A stretch of DNA of 64,000 nt from contig NZ_JACHES010000001.1 of the NCBI RefSeq assembly GCF_014201585.1, positions 186,001 through 250,000 on the forward strand. The letters run 5' to 3'. The position numbers and the translations under genes were made by a program. The number at the start of each line of letters is the position of its first letter. The first letter of the stretch is position 1. The DNA comes from Anoxybacillus tengchongensis (GTDB lineage Bacteria > Bacillota > Bacilli > Bacillales > Anoxybacillaceae). Positions 4,706 through 18,261 of the stretch are shown here, piece after piece. A model generated the notes under the pieces. It had not been told where the DNA came from and searched no databases. It was given only the letters and a program-made list of their open reading frames with translations.

Positions 4706-5020
4706 ATGAACATTACATTAACAAAACGAGCGATTGAACAACTTCATCGTGTTCGAGGGAACAAGCATGTCAAGCTGATATATGATATAGATGATTGTGG
4801 ATGTGCCGTGAATGGTGTGCCTGTTTTGCTCCTTGTCGATGAATTAGATGAGCATGATGTGGTGATTGAAACAAATGATCTGCCCATTTGGGTAGAGAAA
4901 CATCGGCTCATTTTTTTCGATGAACAAATGACGATTGACGTTGTCGACGGGGCAGGATGTTTTCAATTAAAAAGCCCGAATCAAATATTGAATCCGCGCA
5001 TGTCGCTTGTGGAGCGCTGA
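4706..5020 (+). CDS. yqkB: YqkB family protein (HesB/IscA-like fold)
   Basis: A 104-residue protein beginning MNITLTKRAIEQL. It matches the YqkB-type small proteins of Bacilli, which belong to the iron-sulfur biosynthesis (HesB-like) superfamily. Only one Cys pair (DDCGCAV, near residue 28) and one later Cys are present, so the classical three-Cys A-type carrier pattern is not complete and an Fe-S role is uncertain. The ATG at 4706 is preceded by GTGAGGTGAACA; the longer in-frame extension back into the SDR gene has no ribosome binding site and was not used. Confidence 0.75.
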   Translation: MNITLTKRAIEQLHRVRGNKHVKLIYDIDDCGCAVNGVPVLLLVDELDEHDVVIETNDLPIWVEKHRLIFFDEQMTIDVVDGAGCFQLKSPNQILNPRMSLVER

Positions 5021-5028
5021 AAAGAAAA

Positions 5029-6195
5029 ATGATGAACAATTATTTTGTTGATTTACATATTCATATTGGTCGAACGGCTTCACAACGACCAGTTAAAATG
5101 ACAGGAGCGAAATCATTAACGCTATCTAATATTGTCCATGAAGCGACATATACAAAAGGTTTACAAATGATTGGCATTGTTGATGCTCATGTGCCGGAAA
5201 TATTAAAAGAAATCAAGCAACATATTGAAAAACATGGTTGGACGGAACATCGAGATGGGGGAATTTTAGCGCAGGGTGTCACAATGTTGTTAGGAAGCGA
5301 AATAGAAATATACGATGAACATTGCCAAGGTCCAATCCATGTGTTAGTTTTCTTTCCAACCATGGATACAATGCGCAAATTTTCCGATTGGATGGCGAGT
5401 TATGTGAAAAATCGCTCGCTTAGCTCGCAGCGCATATACGTGTTAGGAAAGCAACTGCAGGAACAAGTAAAAAAATGGGATGGATTATTTATTTTAGCGC
5501 ATGCGTTTACTCCGTTTAAAAGTGTATATGGAAAAGGAGTCAAACAAAGTTTGACAGAAGTATTTGATCCTCGCCTTATTGATGCAGTTGAATTAGGATT
5601 AAGTGCGGATACAACGATGGCGGATCAAATCGAAGAGCTCCATCGTTATTGTTATGTATCTAACTCGGATGCTCATTCGTTAAAAAATATAGCGCGTGAA
5701 TATCAAATGATTGCGATGGAAGAAGCAACGTTTGCCGAATTAACAAAGGCGTTACGACATGAACAAGGAAGAAAAATAACAGCAAATTACGGGTTAAATC
5801 CGAGGCTTGGTAAATATTATCGCACAACTTGTGCGCGTTGTTTGTCGCGATGGAGCGGTGAACAATGTGAGCAGTGTGGTTATAATCAACAAATTGTTGG
5901 GGTATATGAGCGGCTGCAACAGCTACGCACCACTTTTTATACATCTGTTGTGCGTCCGCCATATATTCATCAAGTGCCTCTGTCGTTTATTCCCGGAATA
6001 GGCCAGAAGACATATAAAAAACTAATCGAACGAGTAGGAACGGAAATGTATATTATGCATGAAGCGTCTGAAGACGAATTAGCATATGCAGCAGGACAAA
6101 AAATTGCTCAAATGATTATCGCAGCTAGAAACGGTACATTGCAAGTAGATGAAGGAGGGGGAGGGAAATATGGCAAAGTAAAAAGCCCGGAATAA
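5029..6195 (+). CDS. Endonuclease Q-like protein (PHP domain, zinc finger, HhH)
   Basis: A 388-residue protein with an N-terminal PHP metal-binding domain (VDLHIHIGR near residue 7, later SNSDAHS), a four-Cys zinc ribbon (CARC...CEQC, about residues 270-287) and a helix-hairpin-helix (FIPGIGQKTYKKLI, about 322-335). This is the architecture of EndoQ, which nicks DNA 5' of deaminated bases such as uracil or hypoxanthine, and has been characterised from Thermococcales and from a Bacillus. For a thermophile or mesothermophile this would serve repair of deaminated bases. ATG at 5029 (or 5032) is chosen because the family begins just before the HIH motif; the ribosome binding site (GGAG) is weak and distant. 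The stop codon lies inside a terminator loop. Confidence 0.82.
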   Translation: MMNNYFVDLHIHIGRTASQRPVKMTGAKSLTLSNIVHEATYTKGLQMIGIVDAHVPEILKEIKQHIEKHGWTEHRDGGILAQGVTMLLGSEIEIYDEHCQGPIHVLVFFPTMDTMRKFSDWMASYVKNRSLSSQRIYVLGKQLQEQVKKWDGLFILAHAFTPFKSVYGKGVKQSLTEVFDPRLIDAVELGLSADTTMADQIEELHRYCYVSNSDAHSLKNIAREYQMIAMEEATFAELTKALRHEQGRKITANYGLNPRLGKYYRTTCARCLSRWSGEQCEQCGYNQQIVGVYERLQQLRTTFYTSVVRPPYIHQVPLSFIPGIGQKTYKKLIERVGTEMYIMHEASEDELAYAAGQKIAQMIIAARNGTLQVDEGGGGKYGKVKSPE

Positions 6196-6522: not shown

Positions 6523-6538
6523 TGTGATGAATGTCACA
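6523..6538 (+). promoter_or_regulatory. Fnr site and class II promoter of the radical SAM gene
   Basis: Perfect TGTGA-N6-TCACA. The -10 hexamer TACAAT begins at 6560, 29.5 bp from the centre of the site, which places the site at about -41.5. No good -35 is present, as expected for an Fnr-activated promoter. Confidence 0.88.
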
Positions 6539-6597
6539 TGATCTATCTCCGCCTTTTTGTACAATGAGAGGTAGTGATCGAATCGGAGGGATCAAAT

Positions 6598-7713
6598 ATG
6601 CGTGATTTTCAACAAAATCCGTTTATTGTTATATGGGAGTTAACGCGGGCATGTCAGCTCAACTGTCTTCATTGTAGGGCAGAAGCGCAATATCATCGCG
6701 ATCCACGTGAGTTAACGTTTGAAGAAGGAAAGCGATTAATTGATGACATTTATGAAATGAATCAACCTCTTCTCGTGTTTACAGGTGGCGATCCACTGAT
6801 GCGTCCAGATGTATACGATATTGCTAAGTATGCGATTGATAAAGGACTTCGTGTATCAATGACGCCAAGTGCCACACCAAACGTAACAAAAGAAGCGATC
6901 CGAAAAGCGAAAGAAGTAGGACTTGCTCGTTGGGCGTTTAGTTTAGATGGACCAAATGCTCAAATTCACGATCACTTTCGCGGAACACCTGGCTCGTTCG
7001 ACTTAACGATGAAAGCGATTCAATATTTGCACGAGCTCGATATTCCAATTCAAATTAATACGGTCATTTCTCGTTATAACGTTCATGTGCTTGATGAAAT
7101 GGTGCAACTTGTTGAAAAGCTCCGGTGTGTGCTTTGGAGTGTATTTTTCCTCGTACCGACAGGCAGGGGAAAAGAGACGGATATGATTTCGCCCGTTGAA
7201 CATGAAAAAGTGTTTCGATGGCTGTATGAAACGAGCAAACGTGTACCGTTTGATATTAAAACGACAGCGGGACAACATTATCGACGTGTTGTGTTGCAGC
7301 AAAAAATGCGAGAGCAACAAATTCACGGTGACATTCGTTATGAAGACGTGTTAATGAAAGGGCTGACCGGGCAAGTAGATGGGCTAGGACGTGCCCCAAA
7401 AGGAGTAAACGACGGAAATGGCTTTGTATTTATTTCTCATATTGGCGATGTATATCCGAGCGGATTGTTGCCTGTAAAAGCAGGAAATGTGCGCGAACAA
7501 CCGCTATCATACATTTATCGCCATTCTCCGATTTTCAAACAGTTAAGAAATCCAGACGGATATAAGGGAAAATGTGGCGTGTGTGAATTTCGCTACGTTT
7601 GTGGCGGATCGCGTTCTAGAGCGTACGCGGTGACAGGCGATTACTTAGCAAGCGAACCGTATTGCATCTACATCCCGAAAGCGTGGAGGCAAAAAGAAAG
7701 GGTCGGCGAATAG
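6598..7713 (+). CDS. Radical SAM/SPASM protein (NirJ-like, TIGR04053-type)
   Basis: A 371-residue radical SAM enzyme with the SAM cluster motif CQLNCLHC (C-x3-C-x2-C, about residues 19-26), GGDP shortly after, and a C-terminal SPASM-type region (CGVCEFRYVCGG). It resembles the NirJ/AhbC/AhbD class that edits tetrapyrroles or peptides, and the TIGR04053 family by overall shape. Cytochrome cd1 genes and other heme d1 genes are absent, so a heme d1 role is unlikely, and the substrate is unknown. The ATG at 6598 follows GGAGGGATC. A perfect Fnr site lies upstream, tying it to anaerobic nitrate respiration. It is transcribed alone and ends at a strong hairpin. Confidence 0.8.
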   Translation: MRDFQQNPFIVIWELTRACQLNCLHCRAEAQYHRDPRELTFEEGKRLIDDIYEMNQPLLVFTGGDPLMRPDVYDIAKYAIDKGLRVSMTPSATPNVTKEAIRKAKEVGLARWAFSLDGPNAQIHDHFRGTPGSFDLTMKAIQYLHELDIPIQINTVISRYNVHVLDEMVQLVEKLRCVLWSVFFLVPTGRGKETDMISPVEHEKVFRWLYETSKRVPFDIKTTAGQHYRRVVLQQKMREQQIHGDIRYEDVLMKGLTGQVDGLGRAPKGVNDGNGFVFISHIGDVYPSGLLPVKAGNVREQPLSYIYRHSPIFKQLRNPDGYKGKCGVCEFRYVCGGSRSRAYAVTGDYLASEPYCIYIPKAWRQKERVGE

Positions 7714-7725: not shown

Positions 7726-8214
7726 CTACATGTTCATATGATGCCCATGCCCGCTTCCGAGAGAAGGATCTAACATACCAAAAATCATTGCAATGTGAGC
7801 GACAATTAAAAAAATGCCAACGAATATAGCGTGAACTTTTAATTTTTTTTCTTCACTCCAACTGCGGCCGATGATGTGTAAATCTAACAAGCTTAATCCA
7901 ACGAGTGGGATGACGCCTAATAAATAAAATGTCACAGCGATCACGTCAATCCACCCTCTCCATTCCCCATTCATTGTGAGTGGAATGACAGCTGATATGA
8001 ACAAATAAATGAAAACAAACAAAAAATAAAATCCACCTATAATACTACATATTTTATTTAGTCTTCTCACATTTCCATCAAAACGCCGCGTAAACAAAAT
8101 GACTAATTCGGTAATAGCAACAGTTTCGGCTAGAATAACAGGGATTGCCATAAACAAAATTAAATTCCATGGTTGATTAACAGCTAACAACTCCATGTAG
8201 TGCGTCATACTCAT
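7726..8214 (-). CDS. Multi-pass membrane protein of unknown function with His-rich C terminus
   Basis: A 162-residue protein with about four or five hydrophobic segments (residues 15-40, 55-80, 90-110, 125-148) and the C-terminal tail GSGHGHHMNM. Several His sit at predicted membrane boundaries (HYMELL, LDLHIIG, HAIFVG, AHIAM), which could hold heme or a metal, but nothing proves it. I do not recognise a characterised family. It is convergent to the Fnr-controlled radical SAM gene and divergent from the cytochrome maturation operon, so a role in anaerobic respiration is plausible only by position. The ATG at 8214 follows AAAGGAGG. Confidence 0.75.
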   Translation of the reverse strand: MSMTHYMELLAVNQPWNLILFMAIPVILAETVAITELVILFTRRFDGNVRRLNKICSIIGGFYFLFVFIYLFISAVIPLTMNGEWRGWIDVIAVTFYLLGVIPLVGLSLLDLHIIGRSWSEEKKLKVHAIFVGIFLIVAHIAMIFGMLDPSLGSGHGHHMNM

Positions 8215-8541
8215 ACATGCTTCCTCCTTTGTTTTATTCTTTCATCATTGTATGTAACGAAAAAGTGTGCATTTTTTTTGCAGAAATGAAGAAAAAATTG
8301 TGACAATGTTTTATATTAAAAAAATAATTTGTGAAAATATGATCATTCTATTTGTGTTCTAAAACAAAATTATAACGTTAAGAAAATGAATAAAATATGA
8401 ACTTTATCACATTTTATGTTGTATTTTTCGTGAAAACTATTATTGAACAAATTGTGAAAATGTTATCATGCATACACAAAAATCCCAGATGTTTTTCTAT
8501 ACTAAACGTAGAAGAATGATCAAAGAAACGAGGGAACAACG
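8215..8541 (+). promoter_or_regulatory. Divergent intergenic region: control region of the ccm-nrf operon
   Basis: About 327 bp of AT-rich noncoding DNA. It holds three same-strand TTGTGA repeats (8298, 8329, 8452) and one on the other strand (ATGTGATAA, about 8405-8413). A -10 candidate TATACT starts at 8498 with no -35. A degenerate Fnr site, TGTTA-N6-ATACA (8461-8476, 7 of 10 half-site positions), lies exactly 29.5 bp before that -10, the same geometry as the perfect Fnr sites elsewhere in the island. The TTGTGA repeats resemble ResD-type half sites; that is inference. Confidence 0.5.
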
Positions 8542-9351
8542 GTGAAAAAGTATGTATATACATTCGTATGTTTGCTTTTCTTATGTTGTGTTCGTTCCAC
8601 GGCTGCACAAGAAAATGCTTTTGTACTAGAAAACGGACTTATCCAAGTAATGCCAGAATATGCGAATCATCCGGATGATCAAAGCGATAAACCGTCCATG
8701 TTAGTCGGAATGCATCTTTCTTTCCGCAACGTAAGCAAGCAAGGACAAAAAGGAATGATTGTCATCCCGCTTCCAACGAAAGAAAAAGAGTTTCGAGTTG
8801 GTTACGTTGCTCAGTATGTAAATGATGAGCCAAAAGAAATCGATTATACACTCGACCAAGAGAAAGGGTATATCTCTTTCGAAGTAGACAAAGAAATTCA
8901 GCCAAATGAACGTTACGATATTGTAATCGAATACTACACAAAAAATATAAGGCTAGAAAAAAAGAAACGGACGATCACATACACATATCATCATTTGTTA
9001 CCTATTGAACATATGAAAATTGTTTTTTATCAACCATTAGGAGCGAATGATTTTAAGATCGTTCCCTCACCACAATATTATGAGGAAAATACGTATGGGA
9101 TGGGGATGTATTTATATGAGTTCACAAAAATGAAGCAAGGGGATGTAAAAACGTTCAATATCACATATAGCCGAGAAGATATGCGCACAACGTATGAATT
9201 GTTAAATGAATATCACGGGAATGAACAAGAAAAGGAAAATAAAACATTATCACCTATATTCGTAGCAAGTGGTGTTATCGGTGGCAGCTTGCTTTCGATC
9301 GCAACGATGATTATTACGCTTCACAAAAGGAGGGGGAAAAATGGGAAATAA
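8542..9351 (+). CDS. Exported, membrane-anchored protein of unknown function, first gene of the ccm-nrf operon
   Basis: A 269-residue protein with an N-terminal signal peptide (hydrophobic residues 5-18, cleavage likely after STAAQ), an extracytoplasmic region of about 200 residues predicted to be rich in beta strands, and one C-terminal membrane segment (about 240-260) followed by a basic tail (HKRRGKNGK). The mature part has no Cys, so it is not itself a c-type cytochrome or a thiol reductase. I do not recognise the family. It overlaps ccmE by 11 nt, so it is co-transcribed and probably co-translated with the cytochrome c maturation genes; a role in handling heme or apocytochrome outside the membrane is an inference from this. 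GTG start at 8542 after CGAGGGA. Confidence 0.8.
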   Translation: MKKYVYTFVCLLFLCCVRSTAAQENAFVLENGLIQVMPEYANHPDDQSDKPSMLVGMHLSFRNVSKQGQKGMIVIPLPTKEKEFRVGYVAQYVNDEPKEIDYTLDQEKGYISFEVDKEIQPNERYDIVIEYYTKNIRLEKKKRTITYTYHHLLPIEHMKIVFYQPLGANDFKIVPSPQYYEENTYGMGMYLYEFTKMKQGDVKTFNITYSREDMRTTYELLNEYHGNEQEKENKTLSPIFVASGVIGGSLLSIATMIITLHKRRGKNGK

Positions 9352-9763
9352 AAAAATTATCGTCGGTATATGTTTCATTGTTTTAGCCATTGGTATGTTG
9401 CTGTTTACATCGATGCCTTCTGCAAGTGTCGTAGAAGTGAAATTGAAAGATTTAACAAAGAACGAACAATATAAAAATGAATATGTGTTAACACAAGGCA
9501 TGCTGAAACAATCTTCTGTGCGATGGGATGCCAAACGTACGCAATTATCGTTTGAGCTATACGATCAAAGTGAAACGATTCAAGTTCGTTACACAGGGGC
9601 CAAACCCGATAATTTTTCTGATGGCGTCATTGTGATTATCGAAGGGAAATGGCGAAATGACATATTTTATGCTGAAAAAGTACAAACGAAATGCCCATCC
9701 AAATATGAAGGAGAGGATATGAAAAAGTACGACAAAGAAATGCACAAAAAACTTTTAGATTGA
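9341..9763 (+). CDS. ccmE: Cytochrome c maturation protein CcmE, CxxxY type
   Basis: A 140-residue heme chaperone with one N-terminal membrane anchor (about 5-22) and an OB-fold domain outside the membrane. The C-terminal signature is GVIVIIEGKW...KCPSKYEG. In classical CcmE a His in HxxxY binds heme covalently; here Cys118 and Tyr122 form CPSKY, the CxxxY variant known from archaea and Desulfovibrio. This protein would carry heme from CcmABCD to CcmF. The ATG at 9341 follows AAAGGAGGGGG. It lies second in an operon ending in nrfHA. No ordinary HxxxY motif is present elsewhere in the window. Confidence 0.9.
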   Translation: MGNKKIIVGICFIVLAIGMLLFTSMPSASVVEVKLKDLTKNEQYKNEYVLTQGMLKQSSVRWDAKRTQLSFELYDQSETIQVRYTGAKPDNFSDGVIVIIEGKWRNDIFYAEKVQTKCPSKYEGEDMKKYDKEMHKKLLD

Positions 9764-9774
9764 GGCGGTGCTTT

Positions 9775-11724
9775 ATGTATATATTAGGATACACAACGAT
9801 GGTTGCTAGTTTTGTTTTTGCTTTGTATGGCCTTTGGGCGTATGGATACGGGATCAAACGAAAAAAAGAAATGTATCTTGAAAGCGGTAAAGGGGCTGTC
9901 CTTGCTGTTTTTGTTACAGCTACAATTGGAATTTGTTTGCTTGTTTATTTGTTAGTAACAAACCATTTTGAGTATAAATATGTCGCTTCATATACAAATT
10001 CATCGTTAGCGTGGTTTTATCGATTTTGCGCGCTTTGGGCAGGGAATGCAGGTTCTCTTCTCTTATGGGCATTTTTGCTTAGTTTATTTGCTTTGATTAT
10101 CGCATACTCAAAACGTACGCAAACGCATGCTTTAACACCTTATGCGTTGCTCGTTTTACTAATGAATCTCGTATTTTTCTTTCTCGTTTTATCCGTGAAC
10201 GAAAATCCATTTAAAATGACGAAAACGATTCCGTTTGATGGAAACGGCATGAATCCGATGCTATTACATCCTGGCATGATTATTCACCCTGTTTCCACAT
10301 ACGTTGGTTATGTTGTTTTGGCTGTGCCATTTGCTTATACGATTGGGGCTCTTTTTCAAAAAGATTGGAGTACGATGTGGGTTCCTATTGTAAGAAGGTG
10401 GACGCTCATCGCGTGGTTTAGCTTGACAATTGGAAATATAGTGGGTGCGTGGTGGGCTTACGTCGAATTAGGATGGGGAGGATATTGGGCTTGGGATCCG
10501 GTTGAGAATGCCTCATTTATGCCATGGCTAACGACGACAGCATTGTTACATTCATTAATGATGCAAGAAAAAAAACAGATGTTGAAAGGATGGAACGTGG
10601 CGCTCGTTATCGTATCATATTTCCTTACACTATTTGGGACATTTATCGTGCGTAGCGGTGTGCTAACATCTGTTCACGCTTTTTCAAATTCAACGTTAGG
10701 AACGTACTTCCTTATATTTATGATCGTTATGTTTATATTTACGATGTACGTCGTAGTTGATCGTGCTCATGTGTGGAAACAAAATAAAGTCGTGATTGAA
10801 CATGTGATTTCAAAAGAAATGAGCTTTTTAGTCGCCAATTTAATTTTTATTGGTGGGGCGGTAGCTATTTTTTGGGGTACGATTTTCCCGCTCGTATCAG
10901 AAATGTTGAATGGAAAAAAAGTAAATGTTGGCCCCCCATATTTTAATGAAGTGACCGCACCCATTTTTCTATCATTAATTTTATTGATGGCGATCTGTCC
11001 AATTGTTCCGTGGAAATCGGCATCACTCCCGATAATGTTGCGACGGTTAAGTATGCCGTTAATCATGAGCGTATGTATAGCTGTTGCGTTGTATGTCAAT
11101 GGAAAAAAGGATTTATACGTCATTTTAGCATGTTTTATTGTTACGCTCATGATCATTGTACACATGATCGAGTTATTTCATGATGTGTGGAAAAGAAGAA
11201 AAAGAACGCAACAATCCATTGGTCGTGTGCTTGTTGATTTGTTAAAACATAACGGACGAAAGTATGGGGGGTATATTGTTCATATCGGTGTTGCTTTCAT
11301 CGCTTTTGGCGTTATTGGTTCGCAAGCATATAGCGTAGAAATGATGAAAACGCTCTCGCTTGGGGAAAGTGTGAAAATTGGAAAGTATGAATTGCTGTAT
11401 AAATCATTGGATGAACGATATGAAAAAGATAAAGATGTCGTATATGCAACGTTAAAAGTACATGACGACAATAAGAAGACGAATGTACTAGAGGCAGAAA
11501 AATGGTTTTATCACCATTGGAAAGAACCTTCAAGTGAAGTAGCTTTACAGTCAAGCATATTCGAAGATTTATATGTTGTATTAAGTTCATGGGAAAGCGA
11601 TCGAAGTGCGACATTTTTAATAAAAATGAATCCGCTCGTTTCATGGATTTGGATCGGTGGGATAATCATGATGATCGGAGCGATGATTGCCATGACACAT
11701 CCAATGAGAGGGTGGAGAAAATGA
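9775..11724 (+). CDS. ccmF: Cytochrome c heme lyase subunit CcmF
   Basis: A 649-residue integral membrane protein with many hydrophobic segments. The heme-handling WWD domain is at about residues 233-252 (GWGGYWAWDPVENASFMPW). Likely heme ligands His165/His171 and a later His in SVHAFSNSTLG are present, as in E. coli CcmF (similar length). It is thought to transfer heme from holo-CcmE to apocytochrome on the outer face of the membrane. I chose ATG 9775 (after GAGGCGG) rather than the upstream TTG at 9760. Its stop overlaps the next start in an ATGA. Confidence 0.95.
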   Translation: MYILGYTTMVASFVFALYGLWAYGYGIKRKKEMYLESGKGAVLAVFVTATIGICLLVYLLVTNHFEYKYVASYTNSSLAWFYRFCALWAGNAGSLLLWAFLLSLFALIIAYSKRTQTHALTPYALLVLLMNLVFFFLVLSVNENPFKMTKTIPFDGNGMNPMLLHPGMIIHPVSTYVGYVVLAVPFAYTIGALFQKDWSTMWVPIVRRWTLIAWFSLTIGNIVGAWWAYVELGWGGYWAWDPVENASFMPWLTTTALLHSLMMQEKKQMLKGWNVALVIVSYFLTLFGTFIVRSGVLTSVHAFSNSTLGTYFLIFMIVMFIFTMYVVVDRAHVWKQNKVVIEHVISKEMSFLVANLIFIGGAVAIFWGTIFPLVSEMLNGKKVNVGPPYFNEVTAPIFLSLILLMAICPIVPWKSASLPIMLRRLSMPLIMSVCIAVALYVNGKKDLYVILACFIVTLMIIVHMIELFHDVWKRRKRTQQSIGRVLVDLLKHNGRKYGGYIVHIGVAFIAFGVIGSQAYSVEMMKTLSLGESVKIGKYELLYKSLDERYEKDKDVVYATLKVHDDNKKTNVLEAEKWFYHHWKEPSSEVALQSSIFEDLYVVLSSWESDRSATFLIKMNPLVSWIWIGGIIMMIGAMIAMTHPMRGWRK

Positions 11725-12095
11725 TGAAAAAGCTTGGGCTATGTTTGCTTTTACTGCTTGTTCTACCGATTCACGTTTCAGCGCAAACGTATGATTACAA
11801 TTCTAAGTTATTTCAACGTATCGTGAATCAACTATCAATGCAAGGGCATAAAGAACACGATCTTGCTACATGTACAGTAAAGCAACAATATTATAAAGAA
11901 GTACTTGATATGTTGAATAAAGGAAAAAGTGAGGAAGAGATTTTAAATTATTATGTTGAACAACTAGGAGAACAGGCGCTTGTCGTTCCGCAAAAAAGCG
12001 GATTTAGTTTAACAGCTTGGATCGTCCCGATAGCTATCTTTATGTTCGGAATTTTCGTCATTTATCGGACGGTTCGTCGGAGAGAGGGGAATTAA
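11721..12095 (+). CDS. ccmH: CcmH-like protein lacking the CxxC motif
   Basis: A 124-residue protein with a signal peptide (about 1-21), a helical domain, and a C-terminal membrane segment (about 97-116). The stretch GKSEEEILNYYVEQLGEQALVVP and the following VPI membrane region align well with CcmH/CcmL. At the position of the usual LRCxxCQ redox motif it reads LSMQGHK (residues 38-44), so both redox Cys are gone; a single Cys51 lies a little downstream. It may have become a structural partner of CcmF rather than a thiol reductant of apocytochrome. ATG overlaps the ccmF stop (ATGA). Confidence 0.82.
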   Translation: MMKKLGLCLLLLLVLPIHVSAQTYDYNSKLFQRIVNQLSMQGHKEHDLATCTVKQQYYKEVLDMLNKGKSEEEILNYYVEQLGEQALVVPQKSGFSLTAWIVPIAIFMFGIFVIYRTVRRREGN

Positions 12096-12191
12096 ATGGA
12101 GTATATGTATATGGTTATAAGCATAGCAGTTGTCACAGGATGTTCGTATTTTATCGTTAGCCCGTTTTTTAAAAAGAGGGAGAGCGAATGA
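12096..12191 (+). CDS. 31-residue membrane peptide between ccmH and ccmA (possible CcmI remnant)
   Basis: A short frame with a start directly after the ccmH stop, its own purine-rich site (AGAGAGGGG), and a stop overlapping the ccmA start (ATGA). It encodes one hydrophobic segment (VISIAVVTGCSYFIVSPFF) and a basic tail KKRESE. The ending resembles the first membrane helix and PLLRR-like junction of CcmI/CycH, which usually sits near CcmFH. The tight packing and translational coupling argue that it is translated. Function is inferred, not shown. Confidence 0.6.
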   Translation: MEYMYMVISIAVVTGCSYFIVSPFFKKRESE

Positions 12192-12883
12192 TTGTATTAC
12201 ACAACGTTCAAAAAAAGCTCGGTATGCGTCCTGTACTGCGACACATTCATATGGAAGTAAAAAAAGGAGAATGTCTCTCGATTGTCGGGCCAAATGGTGC
12301 GGGGAAAACAACTCTTTTGAAAGTTTGTGCATGCATTCATCAAATTGATGCTGGAAGTATGTATTGGAACGGTCAAGACGTATATAAACAATTGACTGAA
12401 TATAAAAGAAATCTCGGATGGATTTCACATCACCACTTTTTATATGAAAATTTTACGCCAGTAGAAAATTTACGATTTTACAGTGAGTTGTACGGAGTAA
12501 AAAACTGTGAAGAAACGATTAAAAGGTGGTTAAAGATTGTCGATTTATATGTATTTAAAGACATTCCTGTGCGCACTTTTTCAAAAGGAATGAAGCAACG
12601 GTTATCTTTGGCGCGTGCGCTATTACATGAACCGAGCATTTTACTTCTCGACGAGCCATTTACAGGATTAGATCAAGATGGAGTGCAGTTGCTTTTTCAC
12701 TTGTTGCAACAAGAAAAAGAAAAACAAACAGCAATCATGATGGTGACACATGATTTTAGTCATATTGAAAAAATAAGCAATAAAGTTATTTTTCTTCACA
12801 AAGGAGAAATTGCTGCTGAAAGCGTCCAAACAGAAGAAAAACATATAAAGGAAATGTATAAAACATTGGTGGATGAACGATGA
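12188..12883 (+). CDS. ccmA: Heme exporter ATP-binding subunit CcmA
   Basis: A 231-residue ABC ATPase with Walker A VGPNGAGKTTLLK (about residues 35-47), signature FSKGMKQRLSLARAL and Walker B ILLLDEPFTGLD. The FSKGMKQR form of the signature is typical of CcmA and related export ATPases. Together with CcmB it releases holo-CcmE from CcmC-CcmD. It starts in an ATGA overlap with the preceding peptide and overlaps ccmB by 4 nt. The surrounding ccmB and ccmC genes make the assignment secure over other export ATPases. Confidence 0.93.
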   Translation: MIVLHNVQKKLGMRPVLRHIHMEVKKGECLSIVGPNGAGKTTLLKVCACIHQIDAGSMYWNGQDVYKQLTEYKRNLGWISHHHFLYENFTPVENLRFYSELYGVKNCEETIKRWLKIVDLYVFKDIPVRTFSKGMKQRLSLARALLHEPSILLLDEPFTGLDQDGVQLLFHLLQQEKEKQTAIMMVTHDFSHIEKISNKVIFLHKGEIAAESVQTEEKHIKEMYKTLVDER

Positions 12884-13542
12884 ATATAAAACAAATATGG
12901 ATGATCACGAAAAAAGAGCTGTATTACGAGTACAAAGAGAAGCAAAACGTCATGTTTATTCTCGTTTTTGCGCTATTAATGATTACAACGTATAGCTTTT
13001 CGTTTACGATTACACAAGATTTACTAAAACAAATTACGCCTGGTTTTATTTGGATTGTGACCATTTTTACAGGCGTGATGTGTTTCGAACGTTCTATTTC
13101 CTATGAGCTACATAATGATTGTTTGACAGGATTGCTCGTTGCTCCAATTGAAAAAAGTGCGATTTATATCGGGAAAGCAATTGCAAATTTTTTAATCCTT
13201 TTTTGCACTAATGTTATCGTGATTCCGCTTCTGTTTATATTGTTTGATTTTCGCTATTATCAACATCTTTCTCTTTTCTTCGTTGTCATGGTTGTTGGCT
13301 TATTTGGGTTTTCAATCGTTGGTACATTTTTAGCGTGCATCTCAAACAAAGTATTGTTTTACATTTTACTTTTACCAATGGTTAGTCCTTTGCTTATTGC
13401 AGGTGCTCAGTCTACAAAAATATTGTTTCTTACCGAAAATCAAATTCATGATATGTTCAGTTGGCTAAAGATGATGATTGCGTATGATTGCATCTTTTTT
13501 ACCGTCTGTTACTGGTTAATTGATTTTGTGTTAGGAGAGTGA
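12880..13542 (+). CDS. ccmB: Heme exporter permease subunit CcmB
   Basis: A 220-residue protein with about six membrane segments. CcmB-type features are the short N-terminal cytoplasmic region (ITKKELYYEYKEKQN), then EKSAIYIGKAIANFLILF and a C-terminal PMVSPLLIAG segment. It is the membrane half of the CcmAB ABC complex. It overlaps ccmA by 4 nt, and the next gene starts 4 nt downstream, so the export complex is translated as a unit. Confidence 0.9.
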   Translation: MNIKQIWMITKKELYYEYKEKQNVMFILVFALLMITTYSFSFTITQDLLKQITPGFIWIVTIFTGVMCFERSISYELHNDCLTGLLVAPIEKSAIYIGKAIANFLILFCTNVIVIPLLFILFDFRYYQHLSLFFVVMVVGLFGFSIVGTFLACISNKVLFYILLLPMVSPLLIAGAQSTKILFLTENQIHDMFSWLKMMIAYDCIFFTVCYWLIDFVLGE

Positions 13543-13546
13543 AGAG

Positions 13547-14242
13547 ATGAAGAGGCTTGATGCCATTTTGCTTGCGTGTTCGGCGGTTTGTATGTTCATC
13601 GCATTATACATGGTGTTTATTTGGTCGCCAATCGAAGTAAAAATGGGCGTTGTACAAAAAATTTTTTACATTCACGTGTCATCAGCGTGGGTAAGTTTTT
13701 TAGCGTTTTTCGTCGTGTTTATTTGTAGCTTGCTTGTCATTTGGAAATCGAATGAGTTAGCTTATCACATAGCGGGAGCGTCAGCAGAAATTGGTGTCGT
13801 GTTCACAGCCATTGTACTAACGACCGGGCCTATTTGGGCGCGTAGTGCATGGAATACGTGGTGGACGTGGGAACCGCGCTTAACGACAACGTTGATTTTG
13901 TTTTTTATGTATATTGGTTATTTACTATTGCGCCAATCAGATGGGGAACGGAATAAAGTTGCTCGTTTTTCTTCCGCATTCGGTCTCGTGGCGTTCATTA
14001 ACGTTCCGATTGTGTTTATGGCCATTCGTTGGTGGAACTCCCGTTTGCATCCTGTCGTTTTTGGGGATGGAAAAAATCAAAAAGGTGGCGGTGTAGAACC
14101 AGAAATGTTGTTGACTTTAATTGTTTGTGTGGTAACGATGACATTTCTTTATGTCGTCCTGGTCAGAAAAGGTGTTCGTATTGCACGAATGAAAGAAAAA
14201 ATAAAAATGTATATGGAACAAGTGTATACACATTTTTCATAA
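13547..14242 (+). CDS. ccmC: Heme handling protein CcmC
   Basis: A 231-residue protein with six predicted membrane helices. The WWD-like domain reads TWWTWEPRLTTTLILFF (about 104-120). The two axial His are conserved: FYIHVSSAW near residue 43 and RLHPVVFG near residue 166. CcmC loads heme onto CcmE. It belongs to System I rather than the CcsA/ResC class, because it is short and accompanied by ccmABE. ATG follows GGAGAGTGAAGAG. Confidence 0.93.
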   Translation: MKRLDAILLACSAVCMFIALYMVFIWSPIEVKMGVVQKIFYIHVSSAWVSFLAFFVVFICSLLVIWKSNELAYHIAGASAEIGVVFTAIVLTTGPIWARSAWNTWWTWEPRLTTTLILFFMYIGYLLLRQSDGERNKVARFSSAFGLVAFINVPIVFMAIRWWNSRLHPVVFGDGKNQKGGGVEPEMLLTLIVCVVTMTFLYVVLVRKGVRIARMKEKIKMYMEQVYTHFS

Positions 14243-14257
14243 TAAGGGGGATGTCAA

Positions 14258-14410
14258 ATGATTTATTTATTTAGCGCTTACACAGTTGCTTGGCTGATCA
14301 TTTTCTCATATTTGTTCCTTCTTTTTCGGCGCGAAAACAAAATTAGAGAGCAACTGCATTTTATTGAACATTGCTTACAAGAAAAAAAGAATAGGAAGAT
14401 GGTGAGATGA
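14258..14410 (+). CDS. ccmD: Small membrane protein CcmD
   Basis: A 50-residue frame with one membrane helix (SAYTVAWLIIFSYLFLLF) followed by a basic cytoplasmic tail (RRENKIREQ). This matches the AY-(V/T)-W-helix-RRR pattern of CcmD, which holds CcmC and holo-CcmE together and is often missed because it is short. The ATG at 14258 follows AAGGGGGATG, and the stop overlaps the ccmG start (ATGA). Its place between ccmC and ccmG is the usual one. Confidence 0.85.
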   Translation: MIYLFSAYTVAWLIIFSYLFLLFRRENKIREQLHFIEHCLQEKKNRKMVR

Positions 14411-14901
14411 AAAAAAGGGTATGGTGGTTTGCGCTATTGATGATAACCATGATGGTTGCTGTGCTTATTGTCAATAAAAAACAAGAAAAGCTTCATGTTG
14501 GAGATGTTGTTGAAGAAATTCAATTACCGACGTTAGAAGGAGAAATATGGAATATAGAAGAAACAAGAGGAAAAGTAACGGTATTAAACTTTTTCGCAAC
14601 ATGGTGTGAACCGTGTGAAAAAGAGTTTCCTGAATTAGAAGCTTTTCATAAACAATATAAACAAGCGAACATATTTGTTATTTCAAAAGGCGAACCAAAA
14701 AGTTGGGTACAACAGTTTGTTCATAAGCATCAAACTTCTCTTCCTTTTTTACTCGATGTGGATGAAAAAATTGCAAAGCGATTTCAAATTGTTGGACAAC
14801 CGGAAACCGTCATTCTTGATCGCGATGGTGTCATTCGTGAAAAGATTGTCGGTCCGGTGACAAAAGAAATGTTAGTTGAAAAAGTCAAAGCGATGCAATG
14901 A
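14407..14901 (+). CDS. ccmG: Thioredoxin-like protein CcmG/ResA type
   Basis: A 164-residue protein with an N-terminal membrane anchor (about 5-22) and an extracytoplasmic thioredoxin fold. The active site is ATWCEPC (Cys67, Cys70), with a cis-Pro in VGQPETVIL. The WCEPC site is shared by CcmG and ResA, which reduce the Cys of CxxCH in apocytochrome c. Since CcmH has lost its Cys pair, CcmG could act directly on the substrate. It starts in ATGA overlap with ccmD and is followed by nrfH. CcmG versus ResA is settled by context only. Confidence 0.88.
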   Translation: MKKRVWWFALLMITMMVAVLIVNKKQEKLHVGDVVEEIQLPTLEGEIWNIEETRGKVTVLNFFATWCEPCEKEFPELEAFHKQYKQANIFVISKGEPKSWVQQFVHKHQTSLPFLLDVDEKIAKRFQIVGQPETVILDRDGVIREKIVGPVTKEMLVEKVKAMQ

Positions 14902-14960
14902 TAGCAGCGCTTCATTTAAAGCGTTGTTATAGATCATTCAATGAGAAAGGAGGTGAGAAT

Positions 14961-15476
14961 ATGTGGAAGAAGCTATTTAGTCTTGATAAAAAGGTGCTCG
15001 TTGTCGTTTTCTTATTTGTCGGAATTGTTGGCACAGTGGCAACTGCAGAGACATTGAGCTATACAGATTCCCCAGAGTTTTGTAGCAACTGTCACATTAT
15101 GAACGAGGCACATGATTCGTTCGCAGCATCGACGCACGCAAATGTGGCATGTAACGATTGTCACTTACCACACGACAGTGCAGTAAATAAACTTGTTTTT
15201 AAGGCGAAAGCAGGCATGACGCACGTTTACTTTAATACGTTAGGTTCTGAAAAAATACCGAAAGTGCTTCATGCAACAACAGCTTCAAAAGATGTGATTA
15301 ATAAAAACTGTATCAGTTGCCACGAAGCAACCATTCAAAACGTCTCGCATGACGCTAAAGAAAACTGTTTTGATTGTCATCGTGATGTACCACATGGGAA
15401 AGCGACGTTTAAAACAAAAGAATTTTATGAGCCATTGCCTTCAAGAACATTATTAAATAGAAAAGGAGGGTTTTAA
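14961..15476 (+). CDS. nrfH: Cytochrome c nitrite reductase quinol-oxidising subunit NrfH
   Basis: A 171-residue NapC/NrfH family tetraheme protein. One N-terminal membrane helix (about 11-28) anchors it. The four heme sites are CSNCH, CNDCH, CISCH and CFDCH. The first reads CSNCHIM, with Met47 placed like the heme-1 Met ligand of NrfH. It takes electrons from menaquinol and passes them to NrfA. I chose ATG 14961 (after AAAGGAGGTG) over an upstream in-frame ATG that overlaps ccmG, because the helix then starts at the expected distance. Confidence 0.95.
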   Translation: MWKKLFSLDKKVLVVVFLFVGIVGTVATAETLSYTDSPEFCSNCHIMNEAHDSFAASTHANVACNDCHLPHDSAVNKLVFKAKAGMTHVYFNTLGSEKIPKVLHATTASKDVINKNCISCHEATIQNVSHDAKENCFDCHRDVPHGKATFKTKEFYEPLPSRTLLNRKGGF

Positions 15477-15477
15477 G

Positions 15478-16902
15478 GTGATGAAAAAAGCTTTCATGCT
15501 TATTGGATCGCTTCTTCTCGTCCTTGTCGGTTGTGGTCAAACAGAGGAAGCATCTAAACAAAGCAAAAGCACAGGTCTTGCCAAAGATGAGTATCGCAAC
15601 GAAGCATTTAAAGACTTGTTTCCGTTACATTATGAAAGCTATATGAAAAACAAAAAAGAAGAAGACACGAAATATAACGGCTCCGTCAAAAGAAGTAAGT
15701 TTGAACACGATAAAGAGCCGTATTTACCGATTTTATTTAACGGATTTGGATTTGCGACAGAATACAACGAAGATCGCGGACATGTGTACGCGGCAGAAGA
15801 TGTGCGCAACATTAAACGGATTACCGACAAATCGGTCGGATCATGCTTAACTTGTAAAAGTACAGCTGTGCCAAAGTTAATTGAAGAGATGGGCGATGAT
15901 TATTGGGGGGCAAATTTCAACCAAGTCGTTTGGCCGAAGGCAGAAGCAATGGGGCATTCTCCAATCGGATGTTCCGACTGCCACGATCCGCAAACGATGG
16001 ATTTGCGAATTACACGCCCAAGTTTTATTGAGGCGATGAAAACTCGTGGTGTGGATGTAACGAAAGCAACGAAAAACGAAATGCGTTCATACGTATGTGC
16101 ACAATGCCATGTAGAGTATTATTTTGAACCATCGAAATCAAAAGTGACGTTCCCATGGGCAAAAGGATTTAAACCTGAAGAAATGTACGCATATTACGAA
16201 GAAATCGGGAAACAGCAAGGGTTTGAAAAAGATTGGATCCATAACGTATCAGGCACACCAATGTTAAAAGCGCAACATCCAGAGTTTGAAACGTGGATTG
16301 AAGGACCTCATGGAAAAGCAGGGGTATCTTGTTCAGATTGCCATATGCCATATGAACGAGTAAATGGCAAGAAGAAAATAACATCTCATTACTGGACGTC
16401 GCCATTAAAAACGATTGAACAATCTTGTTTAACATGTCACGCCGATAAGTCCGAACAATGGATTAAAACACGTGTAGACGAAATTCAAACAACACATATG
16501 GAAATGCTTCATAAAGCGGAAGAAGTATCCGTTTTTGCTCATTATTATGTTAATAAAATGATTACGGCAAAAGTAGATGAAGTAAAAATTAAAGCGGCAC
16601 AAGAACATATAAGAAAAGGTCAATGGTATTGGGACATTGTCGCGGCAGAAAACTCTGCAGGATTTCATAATCCACAAGGGACGATGGCAACGTTAAGCAA
16701 GTCCATTGAGGAATCTAATCAAGCGATTTTAATTGCGACAGAGGAGCTCATGAAAAAGGGAATAGATGTAGATAAGTTGAAAAAAGAAATTGAGGAGCGG
16801 ATGAAAGCTGTCTATAATGAAGCGGATCCGTTTAAGAAGAAGGATCACGCGATTACAGACAGTTTCCCAGGTCAAACTCCGCCTCCTCCTGCAAAAAAAT
16901 AA
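15478..16902 (+). CDS. nrfA: Ammonia-forming cytochrome c nitrite reductase NrfA (lipoprotein)
   Basis: A protein of about 474 residues with a lipoprotein signal: the lipobox LVGC puts the lipidated Cys at residue 19. Five heme sites are visible: the active-site CLTCK, then CSDCH, CAQCH, CSDCH and CLTCH. The CxxCK site, with Lys as heme ligand, is diagnostic of NrfA. It reduces nitrite to ammonium by six electrons on the outer face of the membrane. The GTG at 15478 or the ATG at 15481 may be used (AAAGGAGGG upstream). In Gram-negatives the CxxCK heme often needs an extra lyase; here only the adjacent Ccm set is present. Confidence 0.97.
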   Translation: MMKKAFMLIGSLLLVLVGCGQTEEASKQSKSTGLAKDEYRNEAFKDLFPLHYESYMKNKKEEDTKYNGSVKRSKFEHDKEPYLPILFNGFGFATEYNEDRGHVYAAEDVRNIKRITDKSVGSCLTCKSTAVPKLIEEMGDDYWGANFNQVVWPKAEAMGHSPIGCSDCHDPQTMDLRITRPSFIEAMKTRGVDVTKATKNEMRSYVCAQCHVEYYFEPSKSKVTFPWAKGFKPEEMYAYYEEIGKQQGFEKDWIHNVSGTPMLKAQHPEFETWIEGPHGKAGVSCSDCHMPYERVNGKKKITSHYWTSPLKTIEQSCLTCHADKSEQWIKTRVDEIQTTHMEMLHKAEEVSVFAHYYVNKMITAKVDEVKIKAAQEHIRKGQWYWDIVAAENSAGFHNPQGTMATLSKSIEESNQAILIATEELMKKGIDVDKLKKEIEERMKAVYNEADPFKKKDHAITDSFPGQTPPPPAKK

Positions 16903-16906
16903 ATGG

Positions 16907-16935
16907 AAAGAGGGGACCGGCATCCCCTCTTTTTC
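16907..16935 (+). terminator. Terminator of the ccm-nrf operon
   Basis: AGAGGGGA and TCCCCTCT pair, followed by TTTTT, immediately downstream of nrfA. Confidence 0.85.
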
Positions 16936-17009
16936 ATCTTATTGTGATTTATACGATGTTGCAAGTGAAATGAATGAATGTATGAAAGTTTTGTGAACAT
17001 AGAAAAAAT

Positions 17010-17025
17010 TGTGAACAATATAACA
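17010..17025 (+). promoter_or_regulatory. Fnr site and class II promoter of the first narK gene
   Basis: TGTGA-N6-TAACA (9 of 10 half-site positions). A weak -10 TACGAT starts at 17047, 29.5 bp from the centre, matching the perfect sites. A second TTGTGAACA lies 18 bp upstream (16991-16999). Confidence 0.7.
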
Positions 17026-17088
17026 GTATCAAACAATTACGTTTTTTACGATAAAATTGTCAAATGGTAAGTGAAGGAGGAGATAAGG

Positions 17089-18261
17089 ATGGAACGATTA
17101 AAACAATTTTTGCGGGTGGGACATTTACCAACACTTCTTTCATCTTTTTTGTACTTCGACATTAGTTTTATGATTTGGGTGATTCTTGGGGCGACGGGAA
17201 CGTTTATTGTAGAAGATTTAGGTTTGACGCCTGCTCAAAAAGGAATGATGGTAGGTATTCCTGTATTAGGAGGGGCGTTGCTTCGTATTCCGATGGGGCT
17301 GCTAGCTGACCGATTTGGTGGTAAGAAAATGGGGATGATTGGAATGATACTGACGTCCATTCCACTTTTTTGGGGATGGTTGTTTGCTGATACACTGACA
17401 CACATTTATGCACTCGGATTGTTGCTAGGGATTGCAGGGGCGAGTTTTGCAGTTGCGCTTCCTTTAGCTAGTCGATGGTATCCGAAAGAACACCAAGGAC
17501 TAGCGATGGGAATTGCAGGAGCCGGGAATAGTGGAACGGTGTTGGCGATGTTATTTGGCCCTCGTCTTGCTGAAGCGCATGGATGGAACAGTGTATTCGG
17601 ATTAGCGCTCATTCCTCTTATCGTTGCATTTATTGTATTTATCCTATTTGCGAAAGAATGTCCGACAGCGGTAAAACCAACGAAAATGTCAGAATATACA
17701 CGCGTAATGAAAATGAAGGAGACATGGTTGTTTAGCTTCTTTTACAGCTTATCTTTTGGTGGATTTGTAGGAATGACGAGCTATTTAACGTTATTCTTTT
17801 TTGATCAATACGGGGTTGACAAGGTGACGGCAGGGGACTTTGTGACGCTTGTCGTATTTGCAGGAAGCTTTGTTCGGCCAATTGGTGGATATTTGGCGGA
17901 TAAATACGGCGGGATGAAATTGCTCGTTTGGTTATTTACTGGTGCGACTGTCACATTAACGATTGTTGGTATGCTTCCACCTGTCTATGTCGCGTTAGCG
18001 CTTTTATTTGTTACACTTATTTTTTTTGGTACAGCGAACGGAGCGTTATTCCAAGTCATCCCTAACGTATTCCCGAAAGAAGTTGGATTATTAACAGGTT
18101 TTGTTGGAGCTGCCGGCGGGTTAGGAGGGTTCTTTTTACCGAATATTTTAGGGATGTTTAAGCAATGGACGAATTCATATTCGTACGGATTTTGGTGGAT
18201 TGCAGCGACGATGCTCGTTGCGATGCTCATTATGAGACGACTGCGCAAAACGATCGCTTAA
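17089..18261 (+). CDS. narK: Nitrate/nitrite transporter, NarK family (first copy)
   Basis: A 390-residue MFS transporter of about 12 helices in the nitrate/nitrite porter family. The nitrate-signature-like Gly-rich segments are GIAGAGNSGTVLAMLFGPR (about residues 143-161) and GFVGAAGGLGGFFLP in the second half, and the helix 2-3 loop has GLLADRFGGKK. The start follows GGAGGAGATAAGG. It is followed by a second narK. The two copies may differ in nitrate uptake by H+ symport and nitrate/nitrite exchange; which does which cannot be read from the sequence. Confidence 0.9.
   Translation: MERLKQFLRVGHLPTLLSSFLYFDISFMIWVILGATGTFIVEDLGLTPAQKGMMVGIPVLGGALLRIPMGLLADRFGGKKMGMIGMILTSIPLFWGWLFADTLTHIYALGLLLGIAGASFAVALPLASRWYPKEHQGLAMGIAGAGNSGTVLAMLFGPRLAEAHGWNSVFGLALIPLIVAFIVFILFAKECPTAVKPTKMSEYTRVMKMKETWLFSFFYSLSFGGFVGMTSYLTLFFFDQYGVDKVTAGDFVTLVVFAGSFVRPIGGYLADKYGGMKLLVWLFTGATVTLTIVGMLPPVYVALALLFVTLIFFGTANGALFQVIPNVFPKEVGLLTGFVGAAGGLGGFFLPNILGMFKQWTNSYSYGFWWIAATMLVAMLIMRRLRKTIA

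Follow-up and report, generated by a model that had tools for sequence, protein, structure and literature searches.

A System I*-type maturation array, likely dedicated to NrfHA, in a nitrate-respiration island of Anoxybacillus tengchongensis

We analyzed a 64,000-nucleotide stretch of Anoxybacillus tengchongensis DNA (contig NZ_JACHES010000001.1, positions 186,001 to 250,000; hereafter the window, to which coordinates refer unless stated otherwise). At 8542-16902, an array of cytochrome c maturation (Ccm) genes directly precedes nrfH and nrfA, which encode the tetraheme quinol dehydrogenase NrfH and the pentaheme nitrite reductase NrfA. As judged from its sequence, the array is a System I* variant, not a textbook System I. 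Its gene content, linkage, co-occurrence and motifs, together with the predicted fold of an exported protein at its front, here called Lead, make it likely that the array serves NrfHA as a cargo-dedicated System I*, placed beside a housekeeping System II. Every biochemical step, the role of Lead and the specificity for the CXXCK heme of NrfA are what we infer.

Twelve co-directional genes on the + strand form the array: Lead, ccmE-F-H-(31-aa ORF)-A-B-C-D, a thioredoxin-fold gene at the place of ccmG, nrfH and nrfA. Intergenic gaps range from -11 to +15 bp through the ccmG place; nrfH then follows after ~59 bp, and a single base pair separates it from nrfA. Pfam and NCBIfam matches and the layout of the open reading frames (ORFs) bore out the initial annotation of this DNA, which had described a tight array of an exported protein and ccmE-F-H-(31 aa)-A-B-C-D-G before nrfH-nrfA. 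We regard the arrangement as more than chance because the cluster recurs in 27 other sampled genomes, in one of two gene orders.

The heme chaperone CcmE (9341-9763; PF03100, E 2.7e-22) identifies the system type. It carries Cys, not His, as the heme ligand in a CPxxY motif (CPSKY in the window copy), and is thus not the His-type CcmE of classical System I; CP[ST]xY was found in all 33 CcmE of loci L073-L107. According to excerpts of PMC3601427, Cys-type CcmE is the hallmark of System I*, occurring in Desulfovibrio, archaea, some chloroflexi and firmicutes; in Desulfovibrio, heme is bound covalently to CcmE and cytochrome c is formed without CcmH and CcmG. Further System I* traits were also present, namely the ABC ATPase CcmA (12188-12883; TIGR01189 above cut-off), the permease CcmB (12880-13542; PF03379, 8.7e-24), CcmC (13547-14242; PF01578, 1.8e-25; TIGR01191 below cut-off) and the heme lyase CcmF (9775-11724; PF16327, 2.8e-62; PF01578, 2.1e-36) with a WWD domain and four His. 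The WWD region and H171, H259, H301 and H503 of CcmF are invariant in 18 Bacillales CcmF, the window's included. CcmC shows WWE instead of WWD (WNTWWTWEPRL), a variant seen in 31 of 33 CcmC from Bacillales and in 9 of 41 from elsewhere. CcmD (14258-14410) is of an alternative family (TIGR04391, 39.2 bits vs a cut-off of 24). The cargo genes encode NrfH (14961-15476; PF03264 above cut-off; TIGR03153 131.7 bits, just below its 134.2) and NrfA (15478-16902; PF02335, 6e-129), whose first heme motif, that of the active-site heme, is CLTCK. Judging by the ribosome sites, the most likely start of ccmF is ATG 9775, after GAGGAGG, and not TTG 9760, from which its frame is open, and nrfH likely starts at ATG 14961, preceded by AGGAGGTGAG; the ccmH start was placed at 11721.

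The initial annotation had called this a complete System I. All named genes are there, but three of them depart from the classical parts. CcmH (11721-12095; PF03918, 9e-14) lacks the LRCxxC thiol pair: its only Cys residues lie at position 8, within the signal peptide, and at position 51, within DLATC. Among the CcmH ORFs of loci L073-L109 (n = 37), a single Cys is found in 24, a CGCG-type thiol pair in 11 and two separated Cys in 2; outside Bacillales (n = 48), the pair is present in 46 and the remaining two show LRCPDC. Counting the window's, 27 linked clusters allowed a judgment: single-Cys CcmH stands alone in 20, both forms occur in tandem in 3 and the CGCG form stands alone in 4. An error was rejected as the cause of the single-Cys form, since it recurs in 23 of these 27. 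Next, no classical CcmI with a cytosolic loop and TPR domain was found in the array, which holds only a 31-aa membrane stub (12096-12191). This ORF matches the N-terminus of 117-135 aa open frames at the same place in related clusters, and 29 of its 31 residues are identical in the congeneric genome G149; since it aligns to the start of these longer CcmI-like proteins, we rejected its reading as an unrelated small gene. The Neobacillus cucumis CcmI-like relative matched the ccmI model TIGR03142 with E 9.5e-4, below cut-off. Finally, the protein at the ccmG place (14407-14901) is nearer ResA (NF002854, 108 bits) than DsbE (TIGR00385, 55 bits), neither match being above cut-off, and the genome's own ResA scores 296. 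The NrfEFG models TIGR03145 (451 of 927 bits) and TIGR03147 (25.6 of 159 bits) stayed below cut-off, and a Pfam scan of ten array proteins gave no TPR match.

We analyzed linkage in an order sample of 397 genomes (135 genera) drawn from the window's order. CcmE was found in 33 genomes and NrfA in 30, all of them within the 33 (Fisher 5e-42 for NrfA within CcmE genomes, ignoring kinship); at the genus level, 11 NrfA genera fall inside 14 CcmE genera of the 135 (8e-14). The search for ccm beside nrfHA in related genomes, proposed with the initial annotation, showed both in one cluster in 28 of the 30; nrfHA follows ccm in 13 of these, which is the window's order, and precedes it in 15. Of the two unlinked genomes, G276 is split by contig ends and G168 has nrfHA-Lead and ccm on different contigs; G210, a 3-kb fragment, was excluded from counts needing the whole cluster. 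Full-length Lead was present in exactly the 30 NrfA genomes and in 0 of the 367 others. Within the window's genus, G149 has NrfA, CcmE and Lead, and G122, G225 and G291 have none; G291 is without window positions 7913-18174, the flanks being 87 and 92% identical, with a Mutator-family transposase at the junction.

Co-variation was then analyzed in 16 of the 27 other linked clusters. NrfA distances correlated with those of CcmG (0.92), Lead (0.85), NrfH (0.83), CcmC (0.76), CcmE (0.74), CcmF (0.62), CcmI (0.62), CcmB (0.60), CcmA (0.47) and HNP (0.46), the last being a protein of the related clusters described below. By resampling, Lead exceeded CcmF in its NrfA correlation by 0.11 to 0.36, and Lead distances correlated about equally with CcmC (0.90) and CcmE (0.89).

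The genome (2.73 Mb in 29 contigs) also keeps System II. ResA (above the NCBIfam cut-off), ResB (PF05140) and ResC (TIGR03144 above cut-off) lie in a row at C1:258828-262186, ResB and ResC occupying C1:259374-262186, ~56 kb beyond the array end. Inside the array, neither ResB/CcsB nor ResC/CcsA was found, the nearest being a sub-threshold ResB-like stretch of CcmF. Because ResA, ResB and ResC are all present, this is not a genome without System II, and Ccm is not its sole system, which settles the resBC check raised earlier. Cytochrom_C matches occur at five other loci of the genome. In the order sample, ResB is present in 32 of the 33 CcmE-positive genomes, the exception being G184 (90% complete).

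With two systems in one cell, the array might instead be a general second maturase for anaerobic cytochromes c, neighboring nrfHA only through a shared Fnr-controlled nitrate-respiration island. The window is such an island: its family matches comprise a NarK-like transporter, ModB and MoaA above cut-offs, a Crp/Fnr-type regulator and NarG/NarH domains, the genes beyond these matches being read from sequence. It holds 14 Fnr-like boxes (<=1 mismatch) vs 2.44 expected, the searched pattern being what we take to be the Fnr box, and one of them (8396-8411, 1 mismatch) lies ~130 bp upstream of Lead. Other cargo is possible, moreover, as seen from the diheme-type clusters and from genomes with CcmE but no NrfA. 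However, whichever of the two gene orders applies, the nrf-linked copy stays beside nrfHA; no genome of the sample has full-length Lead without NrfA; and the ligation module of Bacillus sp. DNRA2 stays with one nrfHA despite a complete cluster elsewhere. We therefore consider a general maturase unlikely.

Dedication to NrfHA can be followed further in clusters that have come apart. Related clusters hold two extra proteins between ccmH and ccmA, the CcmI-like protein (117-135 aa) and HNP, whose sequence reads as an extracytoplasmic HNPGH/HPEW stretch, one transmembrane (TM) segment and a cytosolic helical hairpin. One nrf cluster of DNRA2 consists of Lead-ccmF-ccmH-ccmI-HNP-ccmG-nrfH-nrfA, and within the 19.5 kb read there profiles detected neither ccmE nor ccmABCD; the second ccm cluster of this strain, beside a diheme cytochrome, has all of ccmABCDE. 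By analogy, the DNRA2 nrf cluster resembles E. coli NrfEFG as a ligation module. G220 is the reverse of DNRA2, with a complete nrf cluster and a diheme-type cluster that lacks ccmABCD and ccmH, the diheme gene not being seen there. DNRA2, G220 and G168 have one ccmABCD each at the sites read, the whole genomes not having been searched for further ccmABCD, and Lead is found at every such site except the second nrfHA of DNRA2 (L249).

Other Ccm clusters of Bacillales were also observed. A second type, with a diheme cytochrome c as neighbor, occurs at L108 6927-16719, L109 7047-16727, L102 4442-14239 and L100 5569-11209; Pfam identifies this cytochrome at L108 and L109, and a PCYCGC protein at L109. 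Genes nearby are efp-like and, where read, spoIIIA-like, as named by sequence, and HNP takes a long beta-domain form; no diheme gene is shown at L100. In G016 (L091 6186-12505), ccmE-F-H-I-C-D lies not by nrfHA but beside a cytochrome c554-like pentaheme protein, and no ccmA, ccmB, ccmG or Lead was found at the locus. The two deepest Bacillales Ccm clusters, both NrfA-less, encode between CcmI and CcmA an exported, beta-looking protein with a TM segment and a charged tail (L089 6696-7628; L090 11893-12858), which matched no family above cut-off.

The modular losses bear on a narrower alternative, in which attachment of the eight CXXCH hemes falls to System II and the Ccm variant is required for nothing but the CXXCK heme of NrfA, like E. 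coli NrfEFG or Wolinella NrfI. CXXCK comes first in all 60 rows (58 different) of our NrfA tree set, DNRA2 keeps an NrfEFG-like subset, and excerpts of PMC12285233 and PMC3601427 describe special lyases for CXXCK in other bacteria. Nevertheless, all 27 judged linked clusters carry the full heme-loading set CcmA-E, NrfH has no CXXCK, and the pentaheme protein beside the partial ccm cluster of G016 has five CXXCH, so that a CXXCK-only role appears rather improbable.

Lead (8542-9351), an exported protein with a beta ectodomain and a C-terminal TM segment, was not classified by Pfam, NCBIfam or PDB sequence searches. Its predicted ectodomain, in an AlphaFold2 model built from 3 sequences, resembles oligosaccharyltransferase and M1-aminopeptidase domains. 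The oligosaccharyltransferase matches name the complex only; the matched chain is presumably Ribophorin I/Ost1. Ribophorin I/Ost1 is similar to Lead in the predicted ectodomain fold and in the TM segment after it, but it has 7-9% identity and is a eukaryotic protein of a different enzyme; the likeness found is one of fold.

Several observations weigh against dedication of the array to NrfHA. The 30 NrfA genomes come from only 11 genera, and shared ancestry alone can produce correlations between co-occurring genes without interaction. CcmE occurs without NrfA in 3 of 33 genomes (G016; G120, 83% complete; G273), and N. cucumis V32-6 carries Lead and ccm beside a diheme cytochrome, with no NrfA match. 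The 15 kb read at the second nrfHA of DNRA2 (L249) contain no ccm and no Lead, only Lead accompanies nrfHA in G168, where ccm is unlinked, and the Lead fold depends on the 3-sequence model. Outside the order, among 69 NrfA genomes of the phylum, taken at an NrfA match past ~1e-70, a cut-off that we set ourselves, 32 gave no CcmE match; NrfHA therefore needs no System I in general. Two strict rules were rejected accordingly. Lead is not strictly bound to NrfA, given N. cucumis and the second nrfHA of DNRA2, and Ccm linkage is not exclusive to NrfHA because of the three NrfA-less CcmE genomes and the clusters beside a diheme cytochrome. The dedication suggested by the initial annotation is likely, though not exclusive: System II is kept beside five other Cytochrom_C loci, NrfA of the order sample always occurs with CcmE (30/30), the two are mostly linked, and in DNRA2 the ligation half stays with one nrfHA.

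Beyond the order, the 69 genomes included 37 with CcmE and 46 with ResB. As read from coordinates, CcmE lies within ~8 kb of NrfA in at least 12, and ResB within ~5 kb in at least 15 others; Bacillota NrfHA therefore often travels with some heme ligase, not always Ccm. In two genomes of one family (L224 554-6769; L225 5207-11357), the neighbors of NrfA are ccmABC-ccmE and, after them, ResB and a CcsA-like gene (by Pfam at L224), which may represent a split CcmF as in Methanosarcina; L226 and L233 show similar CcmE-ResB neighbors without NrfA. A CcmF profile scan gave at least 80 loci, with 2 Bacillales among the matches listed.

The CcmF phylogeny suggested with the initial annotation was run as a quick tree of 77 of 120 sequences, near-copies and distant outgroups being omitted. 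A single branch (support 86) sets the Bacillales CcmF (27 rows) apart, with support 100 for a 25-row core, and the diheme-linked copies form a subclade nested within them. A quick tree of the NrfA set has family-level groups in common with the CcmF tree. These results do not bear out a recent transfer origin, and recent import into the window's genus was rejected, as CcmF and NrfA follow Bacillales groups; the GC content of the array (37.8% vs 41.3% in the remaining window) is a weak hint of import. The Bacillales NrfA clade (support 100) includes a nested metagenome-assembled genome (MAG) of Nitriliruptoraceae (Actinomycetota; L177 3994-11935), in which ccm adjoins nrfHA but CcmF is not of the Bacillales type. 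From this single MAG, it looks as if nrfHA moved to another phylum and settled beside a different Ccm set.

The window's genus differs from its relatives by a set of losses. All 25 other linked clusters, G210 excepted, have full-length CcmI, HNP and a charged CcmH tail (mostly EERKKYF-like), and the C-terminal hairpin of Lead is present in 26 of 26 (G028 from its printed tail); the two clusters of the genus (G000 and G149) have none of these. The Lead copy of unlinked G168 also lacks the hairpin. By hhalign, the HNP hairpin is similar to those of CcmI (78%) and Lead (88%), the CcmI-Lead comparison giving only 4%. From charge and TM position, the four lost elements appear to face the cytosol. 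In a rate comparison that took in G149 and the 16 clusters of the co-variation analysis (17 of the 27 other linked clusters), the genus's Ccm distances relative to those among the 16 were 2.16 for CcmB, 1.85 for CcmF, 1.68 for CcmA, 1.43 for CcmG, 1.39 for CcmE and 1.35 for CcmC. The losses and this faster divergence would also be expected of a degenerate, nonfunctional copy with a CcmI stub, no HNP and a single-Cys CcmH. However, NrfA, NrfH and Lead are not faster (0.97, 0.90 and 1.06), the array ORFs are intact and nearly all preceded by a purine-rich ribosome site, CcmF keeps its His and WWD region, and both the single-Cys CcmH of other clusters and the near-identity of the stub in G149 speak against decay, which we consider very improbable. 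Our reading is that the genus may have lost a cytosolic hub, after which the membrane machine was re-fitted.

Taken as a dedicated System I*, the array would work as follows. CcmABCD would export heme and load it onto the Cys-type CcmE. CcmF and the single-Cys CcmH, joined in relatives by the CcmI-like and HNP proteins, would attach the nine hemes of NrfH and NrfA, the CXXCK heme included, and the ResA-like protein at the ccmG place would keep the Cys pairs reduced. Lead, a beta protein anchored in the membrane whose predicted fold is ribophorin-like, would hold apo-NrfA and apo-NrfH at the ligase, by analogy with the job of the TPR proteins NrfG and CcmI elsewhere. More tentatively, we propose that Lead may be a ribophorin-like apocytochrome chaperone that binds the heme ligase, is specific for NrfHA in Bacillales and founds a new class; with the thiol-pair-free CcmH, it might form a ligation module that plugs into an interchangeable CcmABCDE. 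In most species, helical hairpins and tails contributed by Lead, CcmH, CcmI and HNP might form a cytosolic hub that keeps this module together and that the window's genus would have discarded as a set.

The surroundings of the array include further genes. At 6523-7713, a TIGR04053 radical SAM protein has an exact Fnr-like box upstream and scores 384 bits as AhbD heme b synthase (cut-off 500). A DUF6803 membrane protein (7726-8214, - strand) lies upstream of the array; by eye, a protein at L109 6358-6876 in N. cucumis, near the diheme-type ccm cluster, resembles it. Two segments are missing from G122, G225 and G291 at sites that are otherwise collinear: ~157-1637, with a TnpB-like ORF at 336-1520 (OrfB_IS605), and ~5030-6179, most of an ORF (4957-6195) that gave no Pfam match below 1e-5.

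These results suggest that Bacillales attach the CXXCK heme of NrfA probably by a dedicated System I*. The gene set names parts to test, including the unstudied Lead, and two maturation systems per cell, with natural losses separating heme loading from ligation, make cargo choice testable. The initial annotation had considered the system under-described. This stands, as far as searched, for the variant, Lead and the modular losses, which appear new, but not for the kind of system, already known, or the linkage, noted in 2012 for B. azotoformans, in which ccmEFHABC, encoding six of the eight System I proteins, are linked with nrfAH (Heylen and Keltjens 2012, PMC3475470). In the excerpts of PMC3475470, this linkage, the same as in the window, is a single-sentence remark, with no mention of Lead, CcmD, CcmI, single-Cys CcmH, System II retention or distribution. 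The open literature, to the extent of its excerpts and with subscription papers outside its scope, gave no description of Lead, single-Cys CcmH or this distribution. In excerpts of PMC12285233, a 2025 review, NrfHA uses System II, CXXCK heme attachment in organisms of this class is unexplained except via Wolinella NrfI, and in E. coli CcmABCDE is general and NrfEFG serves NrfA.

Compared with System I*, the window shares the CPSKY CcmE, CcmABCF and a CcmH without a thiol pair, but it differs in keeping a one-Cys CcmH homologue and in its alternative CcmD, Lead and the nrfHA linkage; its relatives differ further by the CcmI-like and HNP proteins. E. coli NrfEFG is similarly a dedicated CcmF/CcmH/CcmI-like ligation module for NrfA beside general heme loading, and DNRA2 comes closest to it; in contrast, no TPR protein NrfG was found here, CcmF falls below the NrfE cut-off and the partner is NrfH, not NrfBCD. 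Wolinella NrfI, a System II lyase of the CcsBA type for CXXCK, is like the array in being a dedicated lyase beside nrfHA, but it belongs to an unrelated system, and in other Bacillota sampled NrfA has ResB genes as neighbors.

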